From: Streptomyces sp. NRRL S-87
GTDB lineage: Bacteria > Actinomycetota > Actinomycetes > Streptomycetales > Streptomycetaceae
Direction of reading: 5' to 3'
Assembly: GCF_000719335.1 (NCBI RefSeq)
Contig: NZ_JOGB01000093.1
Coordinates: forward strand, 1-16,825
Length of the DNA: 16,825 bases
This document shows, one piece after another, positions 11,573-14,645 of the stretch; position 1 is the stretch's first letter; every line of letters starts with the position of its first letter. Made by a program: the position numbers and the translations under genes. Under the pieces are notes generated by a model. The model saw only the letters and a program-made list of their open reading frames with translations. It was not told the DNA's origin and made no database searches.

Positions 11573-12562
11573 TTACTTGGTCTCCTCGGTGCGCGCGGCG
11601 TGGGACGGGGTGGTGACGGCGGGCTCGGAGCCGCCGAGCAGCAGGTAGAGGACGGCCATCCGGACGAAGACGCCGTTGGCGACCTGCTCGATGACCGTGC
11701 AGCGGTCGGAGTCGGCGACGTCGGCGGTGATCTCCATGCCGCGGACCATCGGGCCGGGGTGCATCACGACGGCGTGCTCCGGCATCTTGGCCATGCGCGC
11801 GCCGTCCAGCCCGTACCGGCGGGTGTACTCGCGCTCGGTCGGGAAGAACGCGGCGTTCATGCGTTCGCGCTGCACACGCAGCATCATCACGGCGTCGGAC
11901 TTCGACAGCACCTCGTCGAGGCCGTACGAGACCTGGCAGGGCCAGGTGTCGACGCCGACCGGGAGCAGGGTGGGCGGGGCCACCAGGGTGACCTCGGCGC
12001 CGAGGGTGTGCAGCAGGTCGACGTTCGAGCGGGCCACCCGGCTGTGCAGCACGTCGCCGACGATCGTGATGCGCTTGCCGGCCAGGTCCTCGCCGAGGGC
12101 GTCGGGGCCGATCAGGCGGCGGCGCATGGTGAAGGCGTCGAGCAGGGCCTGGGTGGGGTGCTGGTGGGTGCCGTCGCCCGCGTTGATGACGGGGGCGTCG
12201 ATCCATCCGGAGGTGGCCAGGCGGTAGGGGGCGCCCGAGGCGCTGTGGCGGATGACCACGGCGTCCACGCCCATGGCCTCCAGGGTCTGGGCGGTGTCCT
12301 TGAGGGACTCGCCCTTGGAGACGCTGGAGCCCTTGGCCGCGAAGTTGATCACGTCGGCGGACAGGCGCTTCTCGGCGGCCTCGAAGGAGATCCGGGTGCG
12401 GGTGGAGTCCTCGAAGAAGAGGTTGCAGATCGTGCGGCCGCGCAGGGTGGGCAGCTTCTTGATCGGCCGGTCGGCGGTCCGGGCCATCTCCTCGGCGGTG
12501 TCGAGGATGAGGACGGCGTCGTCGCGCGTGAGGTCGGCGGCCGAGATGAGGTGGCGCTTCAT
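11573..12562 (-). CDS. pyrB: Aspartate carbamoyltransferase, catalytic subunit
   Basis: This 329-residue enzyme joins carbamoyl phosphate and aspartate, the committed pyrimidine step. Carbamoyl-phosphate-binding [12 protein letters not shown] lies near 50-61 (STRTR at 53-57), the mobile-loop lysine is Lys84 in [16 protein letters not shown] is at 135-144, and HPGPMVRG at 268-275 is the C-terminal aspartate-site motif. No pyrI regulatory-subunit gene is next to it, as expected for actinobacteria. The ATG at 12562 has GGAG 7 bases upstream. A 163-base, very G/C-rich gap separates it from pyrR, unlike the tight spacing of the rest of the operon; pyrC starts 2 bases after its stop. Confidence 0.97.
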
Positions 12563-12639
12563 CTGGGTGCTCCGGGTTCTCGGATGGAGGAGAGGCGGGC
12601 TCGGGGGTGGGGCGGGCAGGCCGGAGGCGCGCCGGGCGC

Positions 12640-12687
12640 GGGACGTGGTCCCGGCCGGGCGGGCCCGGGTGTCCGGCGGTGCGCCGG
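12640..12687 (-). other. Hairpin-rich spacer between pyrR and pyrB
   Basis: Within the 163-base gap (12563-12725) two small hairpins are clear: GGGAC/GTCCC (12640-12652, 3-base loop) and CCGGCG/CGCCGG (12673-12687, 3-base loop). No U-tract follows either and no PyrR-loop consensus is seen. They may slow transcription or set differential mRNA decay between pyrR and pyrBC. Function unproven. Confidence 0.35.
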
Positions 12688-12725
12688 CCCGTCGGTGCGG
12701 GCGGGCGCGCGGGCACCCGGAAGGG

Positions 12726-13298
12726 CTAGTGGCCGTTCGTCGCGGCCGGGCCCTGGCCGAGCAGCACGGCGTCGCGGCCGTCCTCCTCGTCGAGCTGGAC
12801 CTTGACCGTCTCGCGCAGCGAGGTGGGGAGGTTCTTGCCGACGTAGTCGGCGCGGATCGGGAGTTCGCGGTGGCCGCGGTCGACGAGGACGGCGAGCTGC
12901 ACGGCGCGGGGGCGGCCGAGGTCGCCGAGGGCGTCGAGGGCGGCGCGGATGGTACGGCCGGAGAAGAGGACGTCGTCGACGAGGACGACCAGGAGGCCGT
13001 CGAGGGTGTCGACGGGGATCTCGGTGCGGCCCATCGCGCGGGCGGGCTTCATCCGCAGGTCGTCGCGGTACATGGTGATGTCGAGCGAGCCGACCGGCAC
13101 CTTGCGGCCGGTGATCTCCTCCAGCTTCGCGGCGATCCGGCGGGCGAGGAAGACGCCCCGCGTCGGGATGCCGAGGAGGACCACGTCGTCGGCGCCCTTG
13201 GCGCGTTCGACGATCTCGTGGGTGATGCGGGTCAGTACCCGCGCGATGTCGGAGGCCTCGAGTACCGGCCGTGCCGCATCGGTGGCGTGCGTGTCCAT
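12726..13298 (-). CDS. pyrR: Pyrimidine operon RNA-binding regulator PyrR / uracil phosphoribosyltransferase
   Basis: This 190-residue protein binds UMP and an mRNA hairpin to repress pyr genes; homologues may also convert uracil and PRPP to UMP. The PRPP-binding motif [13 protein letters not shown] lies at about 104-116. Earlier segments [13 protein letters not shown] (42-54) and [10 protein letters not shown] (72-81) are standard PyrR features, and the basic residues between them fit the RNA-binding face. The ATG at 13298 has a near-perfect AAGGAGGT ribosome site 7 bases upstream. That site lies inside a hairpin carrying the PyrR recognition loop, which suggests translational autoregulation. 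It is the first gene of the pyrimidine operon and is divergent from bldD. Confidence 0.97.
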
Positions 13299-13304
13299 GA
13301 AAAG

Positions 13305-13346
13305 GACCTCCTTCTCCGCCTCACTGGACGGAACTTAAAGGACGTC
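13305..13346 (-). promoter_or_regulatory. PyrR-binding hairpin that contains the pyrR ribosome-binding site
   Basis: The minus-strand RNA forms a lower stem, GACGUCCUU (13338-13346) with AAGGAGGUC (13305-13313), 8 pairs and one G/G mismatch; then an asymmetric internal loop; then an upper stem CCGUC/GGCGG (13327-13331 with 13316-13320) closing a six-base loop CAGUGA (13321-13326). The UCCAGUGAGGC core matches the known PyrR binding-loop consensus (UCCNGNGAGG). The lower stem contains the whole AAGGAGGU Shine-Dalgarno (13306-13313), so PyrR-UMP stabilisation would block initiation. There is no terminator alternative. Confidence 0.75.
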
Positions 13347-13361
13347 TGTCGTAGCTCCTCC

Positions 13362-13367
13362 ACCGTA
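13362..13367 (-). promoter_or_regulatory. Candidate -10 box of the pyr operon
   Basis: Minus-strand TACGGT fits TANNNT. The expected start near 13355 lies 9 bases before the left arm of the PyrR hairpin, giving a leader of about 57 bases that holds the complete element. No good -35 hexamer is seen upstream, so support is positional. Confidence 0.4.
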
Positions 13368-13405
13368 TCAGTGCCGCCGGGCTGATCGCGCCACGGGGAC
13401 GGCGA

Positions 13406-13426
13406 CACGGGTGCGAACCACCCGTG
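13406..13426. repeat. 8-bp perfect inverted repeat in the pyrR-bldD intergenic region
   Basis: CACGGGTG (13406-13413) and CACCCGTG (13419-13426) flank a 5-base centre. It lies about 39 bases upstream of the candidate pyrR -10 box and about 27 bases upstream of the bldD -35. The position between divergent promoters suits an operator. I do not recognise the motif. Confidence 0.45.
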
Positions 13427-13452
13427 CGTGGGGCGGGGCGCGGCCATTCGGC

Positions 13453-13482
13453 TTGACGCATCCACGTAACGCTGCGTAACCT
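13453..13482 (+). promoter_or_regulatory. bldD promoter
   Basis: TTGACG (13453-13458), an 18-base spacer and TAACCT (13477-13482) form a strong vegetative-type (HrdB-like) promoter. The predicted start near 13489 gives a bldD leader of about 53 bases. BldD operators overlap the spacer, the -10 box and the start site. Confidence 0.8.
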
Positions 13483-13495
13483 CACAGTGAGTTAC
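13466..13495 (+). promoter_or_regulatory. Two abutting BldD-type operator boxes
   Basis: GTAACGCTGCGTAAC (13466-13480) fits every position of the published BldD consensus nTnACnC(A/T)GnGTnAn. CTCACAGTGAGTTAC (13481-13495) fits with one mismatch and directly follows it. Together they cover the -10 box and expected start, so bound BldD should repress its own gene. BldD autorepression is known in S. coelicolor; the tandem reading is from this sequence. Confidence 0.75.
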
Positions 13496-13541
13496 CAGCC
13501 GCGCGGCGGAGCCGCACGTCGTCATAGCGTCCGGGAGCCTT

Positions 13542-14042
13542 ATGTCCAGCGAATACGCCAAACAGCTCGGGGCCAAGCTCCGTGCGATCCGCACCCAGCA
13601 GGGCCTTTCCCTCCACGGTGTCGAGGAGAAGTCCCAGGGCCGCTGGAAGGCGGTCGTGGTGGGCTCGTACGAGCGCGGGGACCGCGCCGTCACCGTCCAG
13701 CGGCTCGCCGAGCTCGCGGACTTCTACGGCGTTCCGGTGCAGGAACTGCTGCCGGGCACGACCCCGGGCGGGGCCGCCGAGCCGCCGCCGAAGCTGCGCC
13801 TGGACCTGGAGCGCCTGGCCCACGTCCCCGCGGAGAAGGCCGGCCCGCTGCAGCGCTACGCGGCGACCATCCAGAGCCAGCGCGGCGACTACAACGGCAA
13901 GGTGCTGTCGATCCGCCAGGACGACCTGCGCACCCTGGCCGTCATCTACGACCAGTCCCCCTCGGTCCTCACCGAGCAGCTGATCAGCTGGGGCGTGCTG
14001 GACGCGGACGCGCGCCGCGCCGTCACGCACGAGGAGGCGTAG
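13542..14042 (+). CDS. bldD: Developmental master repressor BldD, c-di-GMP-responsive
   Basis: This 166-residue transcription factor represses sporulation genes during vegetative growth; a c-di-GMP tetramer bridges two monomers to enable DNA binding. The N-terminal XRE-type helix-turn-helix domain spans about residues 5-72 (LGAKLRAIRTQQGLSLHGVEEKS and GSYERGDRAVTVQRLAELAD regions). The C-terminal c-di-GMP domain carries the bipartite signature RGD (114-116), eight residues, then RQDD (125-128), all intact. The ATG at 13542 has GGGAG 4 bases upstream. It is the only plus-strand gene here, divergent from the pyr operon and convergent with nusB. From memory it differs from the S. coelicolor protein at only a few residues, mainly at the C-terminus, which supports a Streptomyces source. 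Confidence 0.98.
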   Translation: MSSEYAKQLGAKLRAIRTQQGLSLHGVEEKSQGRWKAVVVGSYERGDRAVTVQRLAELADFYGVPVQELLPGTTPGGAAEPPPKLRLDLERLAHVPAEKAGPLQRYAATIQSQRGDYNGKVLSIRQDDLRTLAVIYDQSPSVLTEQLISWGVLDADARRAVTHEEA

Positions 14043-14078: not shown

Positions 14079-14131
14079 AACGCCGATGGGCCTGGCCCGA
14101 AGCAGAGCTTCGGGCCAGGCCCATCGGCGTT
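14079..14131. terminator. 24-bp perfect hairpin between convergent bldD and nusB
   Basis: Arms 14079-14102 and 14108-14131 are exactly complementary with a 5-base loop CAGAG. It begins 36 bases after the bldD stop. Being symmetric it can stop transcripts from both sides; the minus-strand exit carries ACGUUUCU while the plus-strand exit is C-rich. A further GC palindrome (14132-14148) directly follows. Confidence 0.85.
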
Positions 14132-14213: not shown

Positions 14214-14645
14214 CTACGCCTCGCGGCGCAGCTTCGGCTTCAGGTCCTTGAAGCGGCCCAGCAGGCCGTTCACGAAGGCCGGCGAGTCGTCCGTGGAGAA
14301 CTCCTTGGCCAGCTGCACGGCCTCGTCGATGCACACGGCGTCCGGGGTCTCGTCCTCCCAGATCAGCTCGTACGCGCCGAGGCGGACGATGTTCCGGTCC
14401 GCGACGGGCATCCGGTCGAGGTCCCAGTCCACCGCGTAGGTGGCGATGAGCTCGTCGATCCGGGCCACGTGCTGGGCGTACCCCTCGACCAGCTGCATCG
14501 TGTACTCGGCGACCGGCGGCTGCCGGTCGTCCGAGCGCGAGTGCCGGACCCAGTCGGCGAGTACCGTCTGCACGCCCTCGTCGCGCTGGTCGGCCTCGAA
14601 GAGGATCTGGAAGGCGCGCTTGCGGGCCTTGCTGCGGGCAGCCAC
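14214..14645 (-). CDS. nusB: Transcription antitermination factor NusB
   Basis: This 143-residue, all-helical RNA-binding protein works with NusE (ribosomal protein S10) at boxA RNA to prevent early termination in rRNA operons. Family signatures are present: ARKRAFQILFEAD near residues 7-19, a central IDELIATYAVDWDLDRMPVADRNI region near 63-86, and LGAYELIWEDETPDAVCIDEAVQLAKEF with the C-terminal FVNGLLGRF near 123-131. The GTG start at 14645 lies 2 bases after the efp stop, so translation is probably coupled; no strong separate ribosome site is seen. Adjacency of efp and nusB is common in Gram-positive bacteria. Confidence 0.96.
   Translation of the reverse strand: MAARSKARKRAFQILFEADQRDEGVQTVLADWVRHSRSDDRQPPVAEYTMQLVEGYAQHVARIDELIATYAVDWDLDRMPVADRNIVRLGAYELIWEDETPDAVCIDEAVQLAKEFSTDDSPAFVNGLLGRFKDLKPKLRREA

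Follow-up and report, generated by a model that had tools for sequence, protein, structure and literature searches.

The pyrR leader and its hairpin

The window, that is, the whole stretch of 16,825 nucleotides from Streptomyces sp. NRRL S-87 analysed here, carries pyrR and pyrB on its minus strand. The product of pyrR (positions 12726 to 13298), the PyrR regulator/uracil phosphoribosyltransferase, scored 294.6 bits against NF003547 (cut-off, 230) and matched solved PyrR structures; a stretch of 16 residues, which we take to be the RNA-binding stretch, is almost unchanged in the solved PyrR proteins listed. The genome thus encodes the protein that translational repression through a PyrR loop calls for. 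The pyrB gene, for aspartate carbamoyltransferase (11573 to 12562; NF002032, 402.8 bits; cut-off, 263), lies 163 bases past pyrR, as the preliminary description of this DNA had stated. The gap (12563 to 12725) is 55% C and held no second PyrR loop in the sequence and loop scan. bldD (13542 to 14042) is divergent from pyrR.

A PyrR-loop hairpin lies directly before pyrR, at 13346 to 13305 of the minus strand (GACGUCCUUUAAGUUCCGUCCAGUGAGGCGGAGAAGGAGGUC), and sequence, fold, alignment and covariation confirmed that it is real. Its hexaloop, CAGUGA (13326 to 13321), is closed by the five upper pairs described before and by a sixth, U13332-A13315, the upper stem being 13332 to 13327 paired with 13320 to 13315. 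A UUUAA side bulge is present. The lower stem joins 13346 to 13338 with 13313 to 13305 through five pairs (13342 to 13338 with 13309 to 13313), a single mismatch of G13343 facing G13308 and three further pairs (13344 to 13346 with 13307 to 13305). The pyrR Shine-Dalgarno (SD) sequence, AAGGAGGU (13306 to 13313, minus strand), has seven of its eight bases paired inside the hairpin, the exception being G13308. The preliminary description, in which the lower stem paired the complete ribosome site, was therefore correct in essence but slightly overstated how much of the SD sequence is paired.

The leader piece 13346 to 13296 folded at -19.9 kcal/mol (z, -3.1), and 2 of 200 shuffles folded as well. 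Counting against the hairpin, a 221-base stretch around it, much of which lies before the probable point of transcript initiation, gave a z of -0.13 and a centroid that paired differently. The computed cost of opening the SD sequence was 4.8 kcal/mol at 30°C in the window and averaged 5.3 kcal/mol (range, 0 to 11.6) over 154 leaders of class Actinomycetes (hereafter, the class). At such costs the hairpin is predicted to be mostly closed even without PyrR, which counts against the explanation preferred below; PyrR would deepen the block rather than create it. In the window (13313 to 13270; GUCC with GGAC) and in relatives, the first pyrR codons can also pair with the 3' end of the SD region. 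A hairpin at the start codon as a competitor of the lower stem was considered and set aside: own pieces were a little more stable than swapped ones (-9.12 versus -8.34; 0 of 200 swaps; n = 96 species), and composition or kinship could explain this difference.

A -10-like box, TACGGT (13362 to 13367, minus strand), is found just upstream. Of 67 Streptomyces-like leaders, 64 had a TANNNT box at this place, 16 to 36 bases ahead of the UUUAA anchor, versus 0, 3 and 1 in three intervals further upstream; in the other 87 class leaders it stood there in 66, versus 6, 10 and 4 in the upstream intervals. From this box we infer that the transcript starts near 13354, some 8 bases ahead of the hairpin. 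A start downstream of 13346 had been named as fatal to the proposed control, and the predicted box places it upstream of the hairpin instead. Moreover, a leader this short would have no room for an attenuator or for a competing upstream structure.

Conservation in class Actinomycetes

Named genomes yielded 80 loci when searched, and PyrR was also sought in 216 genomes of the class and 119 of the phylum, where it was among the matches listed in 213 and 115, respectively. From the matches listed we took 120 regions, 73 of the class and 47 of other classes, the 73 leaning to better-scoring PyrR proteins. The element stood directly before pyrR in the window and in all 80 named-genome loci, and it lay at most 20 bases from an in-frame start codon in each of the 73 class loci taken from the matches listed. 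The f4/g4 loci L152 and L153 carry the same element at pyrR. A structural scan detected it ahead of pyrR in 189 of 201 loci and gave no hit at 98,281 antisense and 80,400 coding control positions.

Compensatory changes in the stems, which the preliminary description had proposed as a check, were looked for in an alignment (A1) of 99 of the 118 distinct class elements; the 19 left out are mostly from Streptomyces, plus L071, L078 and L081. Across this alignment, 92.9% of the cells of a 14-pair structure were paired, versus 51.8 to 62.4% when the 3' side was slid. Double-changed cells numbered 38 (shuffle mean, 11.8; 0 of 500 shuffles reached 38), and seven pairs were changed in both partners (shuffle mean, 4.9; 12 of 500 shuffles reached 7). 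The stems thus covary. In the tree sign tests seen, independent changes were too few for significance; the accompanying upper-stem counts include loci outside the class, where the scanner required four upper pairs, and the class set lost 0 loci. RNAalifold agreed on the upper stem and on the core of the lower stem, adding one U-G pair, and did not predict the three outer pairs. Upper pair 4 was C-G in 114 of 123 unique class elements, U-A in 9 and broken in none. The position equivalent to the G13343/G13308 mismatch formed a standard pair in only 16% of 123 unique relatives. The lower-stem core hardly varied, as expected if it doubles as the SD sequence.

RF00515, the PyrR model of Rfam, placed the element here at 34.8 bits, below its cut-off of 54 (E, 0.13). 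The loop half of its consensus (UUUAA bulge, NNGNGA hexaloop and AAGG arm) aligned in the window, and in this first half the element resembles the Bacillus PyrR attenuator. It differs from the attenuator in its score under the cut-off and in the terminator half, which is absent downstream of the loop. Indeed, no terminator-like site was found between 12500 and 13700 of the window, and none in the leaders of the 154 class loci examined, in all of which the element stands directly before pyrR; the earlier statement that no terminator is present was thus borne out. Six class relatives gave no RF00515 match at E 0.1. This attenuator-shaped model missed the class element in seven of the seven loci tested.

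We then searched genomes with a covariance model (R1). It found one site in the window's own genome (66.9 bits) and one strong site in each of 61 genomes of the genus, with seven weak extra sites of about 21 bits. Of 98 class genomes, 96 had a match, as did 385 of the 393 in a larger draw that overlaps the 98. Among the eight genomes missed, three had no PyrR among the matches listed; G188 had PyrR, and the element was not found. Eight genomes without PyrR above the NF003549 cut-off, picked for the absence of a PyrR match (seven) or of the element (one), gave no R1 match above 18.8 bits. By these counts the element keeps near-constant company with pyrR, and a hairpin over the pyrR ribosome site appears to be the standard form in the whole class. 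In G394, an incomplete genome, there were two sites, each at a contig end.

Copies at carA and leaders of other classes

Two strong sites occurred in 12 genomes of the 393-genome draw, all of family f22. We compared 17 f22 genomes, eight with two sites (L231 to L238) and nine with one, and two of them were read base by base. The second element lies directly before carA, which stands 1.4 to 13.4 kb beyond pyrC in the two-site genomes; in the one-site genomes, carA lies -24 to +36 bases from pyrC and lacks its own element. A copy at carA was thus present in 8/8 genomes with carA away from pyrC versus 0/9 with carA in place. An element that accompanies carA when the gene moves argues for action at the ribosome site, not with a terminator, and for a role in the pathway beyond pyrR alone.

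Outside the class, the full element was present in 35 of the 47 loci of other classes of Actinomycetota and absent in 12. It was far from pyrR in 28 of the 35 and close in 7, and an intrinsic terminator was found in 19 of the 28 far leaders. In 23 of these 28, a start codon followed by at least 6 codons lay 7 to 18 bases past the AAGG of the loop; random upstream positions gave 8.5, and 0 of 500 were as high as 23. Applied to 40 further loci (31 far, 3 close and 6 without the element), the same rule returned a start codon in 25 of 31 far leaders (control mean, 10.7; 0 of 1000 as high). Over both sets (L155 to L201 and L248 to L287), a short open reading frame (ORF) with the 3' arm of the loop as its would-be SD sequence was present in 48 of 59 far leaders, some of these loci being close kin. 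The spacing of the start codon after AAGG peaked at 12 to 13 bases, and 12-base control intervals gave 16, 15, 20 and 30 of 59 at four downstream positions and 22 and 2 at two upstream ones.

The leader ORFs are 15 to 71 codons long. Where a leader has a U-run (29 cases), the ORF extends beyond the first one in 27. Among the 19 ORF leaders without a U-run, 16 ORFs end on a pyrR start codon (ATGA/GTGA or TGATG), versus 1 of 19 for a control frame that is neither that of the leader nor that of pyrR; with a U-run, the figures were 9 of 29 versus 3 of 33. These comparisons suggest a leader peptide gated by PyrR. A ribosome on an ORF that crosses the terminator would keep the terminator from forming, and the conserved AAGG arm can also serve as an SD sequence; leader ORFs, if translated, would thus link attenuation with translational control.

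We consider it a little better than an even bet that these forms are variants of one translation gate across Actinomycetota, in which the 3' arm, AAGG(A/G)G, serves as the SD sequence of the first ORF, namely pyrR in class Actinomycetes and a leader ORF of 15 to 71 codons in most other leaders. Without a U-run, the ORF would usually end on a pyrR start codon and relay the block; with a terminator, it would run through, and PyrR, by halting translation of the leader, would determine termination. Where the operon is broken, carA would take its own gate, and Streptomyces and near kin, having opened a gap after pyrR, would use another route, perhaps through Rho. Close and distant relatives with the same hairpin show different ways of relaying the signal to later genes.

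Control of pyrR and of the later genes

The explanation that we prefer, at a probability of about 85%, is that a hairpin gate over the pyrR SD sequence, closed by PyrR with UMP, controls pyrR translation; when pyrimidines are abundant, the regulator very probably represses translation of its own gene. The pyrR mRNA would start about 8 bases before the PyrR-binding hairpin, with the SD sequence within the lower stem. PyrR with UMP on the hexaloop and upper stem would keep the hairpin shut, so that loading of the 30S subunit is blocked and pyrR translation falls; at low UMP, PyrR would release the RNA and ribosomes would compete the lower stem open. Binding of this hairpin by PyrR and UMP as the signal are inferred by analogy with PyrR biochemistry in other bacteria. 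The loop over the SD sequence, the terminator-free leaders, the upstream -10 box and the covarying stems support the earlier claim of translational control as opposed to attenuation. Set against this are the RF00515 score under the cut-off, the unremarkable 221-base fold, G188 with a PyrR but no detected element, and the action of ArgR and WhiA on this promoter in other Streptomyces.

PyrR-dependent translational repression of pyr genes was reportedly described in Mycobacterium smegmatis by Fields and Switzer in 2007 (J Bacteriol 189:6236). In that system a PyrR loop is said to lie where ribosomes bind on the first pyr gene, with no attenuator. The window element belongs to this known kind: the 3' arm of the PyrR loop is the SD sequence, and no terminator precedes the gene. 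We know of no essential difference between the two systems, other than the long gap that separates pyrB from pyrR in Streptomyces. The surprising part is the carA copies and the leader ORFs. In ribosomal-protein operons, too, an autogenous translational repressor shuts the ribosome site of the leading gene, and the block spreads by coupling; the present repressor differs in that it is expected to answer to UMP, and the protein and the RNA are unrelated. A literature search, mostly without subscription papers, found no report on the Streptomyces PyrR hairpin, on a carA copy or on PyrR-gated leader peptides.

Two other readings of the hairpin were weighed against the translational gate. In Bacillus-type attenuation, the loop would act as an anti-antiterminator and transcription would terminate before pyrR. 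The loop is of the same family, terminators do accompany it in most far leaders outside the class, and RF00515 matched seven loci of the terminator-bearing type tested there at 47.4 to 60.8 bits, three of them above the cut-off. However, the window and the 154 class leaders are free of terminators, the loop sits directly over the SD sequence and only about 8 bases are predicted before it, so that we regard attenuation here as highly improbable. The hairpin might instead set a constant low level of translation while ArgR, WhiA and others control the operon on the DNA. For S. coelicolor, PMC5839063 lists ARG boxes at pyrB, at the start of pyrR and upstream of bldD; pyr genes rise in an argR mutant; the pyrR/bldD region of S. 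venezuelae is bound by WhiA (PMC3781837); and the hairpin is stable alone. Against this reading, the loop letters are kept across the class, although a bare SD hairpin would not need them, and the element was not found in the eight genomes without PyrR over the cut-off. Control on the DNA with a passive hairpin thus seems to us unlikely. The window regions to which these reports relate are 13299 to 13541, between bldD and pyrR, and 12562.

How the signal reaches pyrB becomes a matter of comparison: most class relatives overlap pyrR and pyrB by 4 bases, f22 places a copy of the hairpin at carA, and neither arrangement is seen in Streptomyces. An overlap of exactly 4 bases between the end of pyrR and the start of pyrB was present in 62 of 73 class loci from outside the genus, and the distance lay within -8 to +8 in 70; translational coupling through such an overlap would carry the block on. 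In Streptomyces, the gap exceeded 60 bases in 59 of 62 named loci, the 163 bases of the window being near the long end, and a gap was also present in a few loci titled other than Streptomyces and in some outside the class. PyrR might gate only pyrR, with pyrB and later genes escaping it in Streptomyces, which is compatible with the translational gate at pyrR. This escape is a real alternative, if the less probable course. The long gap speaks for it, as do the lack of a second strong PyrR site in the 61 genus genomes and the pairing of the pyrB SD sequence with the pyrR tail, which was not above that of shuffled tails (0.61 versus 1.07; n = 64). The overlaps and the f22 copies argue the other way, since together they make control of the later genes seem selected for. 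Moreover, in PMC3293853 a pyrB promoter fusion of S. coelicolor gave less than 1 unit of light and a pyrR fusion gave measurable ratios, so that pyrB probably rides on the pyrR transcript.

If pyrB and later genes do follow the translational gate at pyrR, our guess for the route in Streptomyces is polarity, perhaps with Rho: untranslated pyrR message would be exposed to Rho or to decay. The C minus G value of the window's gap was 0.25, reached by 0.4% of equal-length segments of the window's minus strand, three other segments included, and over 64 species the mean was 0.18 in the gap versus 0.10 in pyrR. A Rho/rut-like gap is kept as a guess, the outcome being mixed: the gap exceeded every pyrR interval in only 26 of 64 species and every pyrB interval in 14 of 64. 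Long-range pairing of the pyrB SD sequence with the end of pyrR was likewise unsupported over the 64 species, and the high value in the window alone (3.86 versus 0.38) was taken as chance. A second PyrR loop before pyrB was dismissed after a single loose motif match (L006).

Elsewhere in the window, a long, nearly perfect inverted repeat (14079 to 14131) lies between bldD and a convergent minus-strand gene (14214 to 14645). Matches to miRNA families at this repeat were put down to chance; it is probably a terminator for one or both flanking genes. Finally, the minus strand carries a Streptomyces-metK RNA (RF03063) at 113 to 234, which scored 82.6 bits (cut-off, 44.2).
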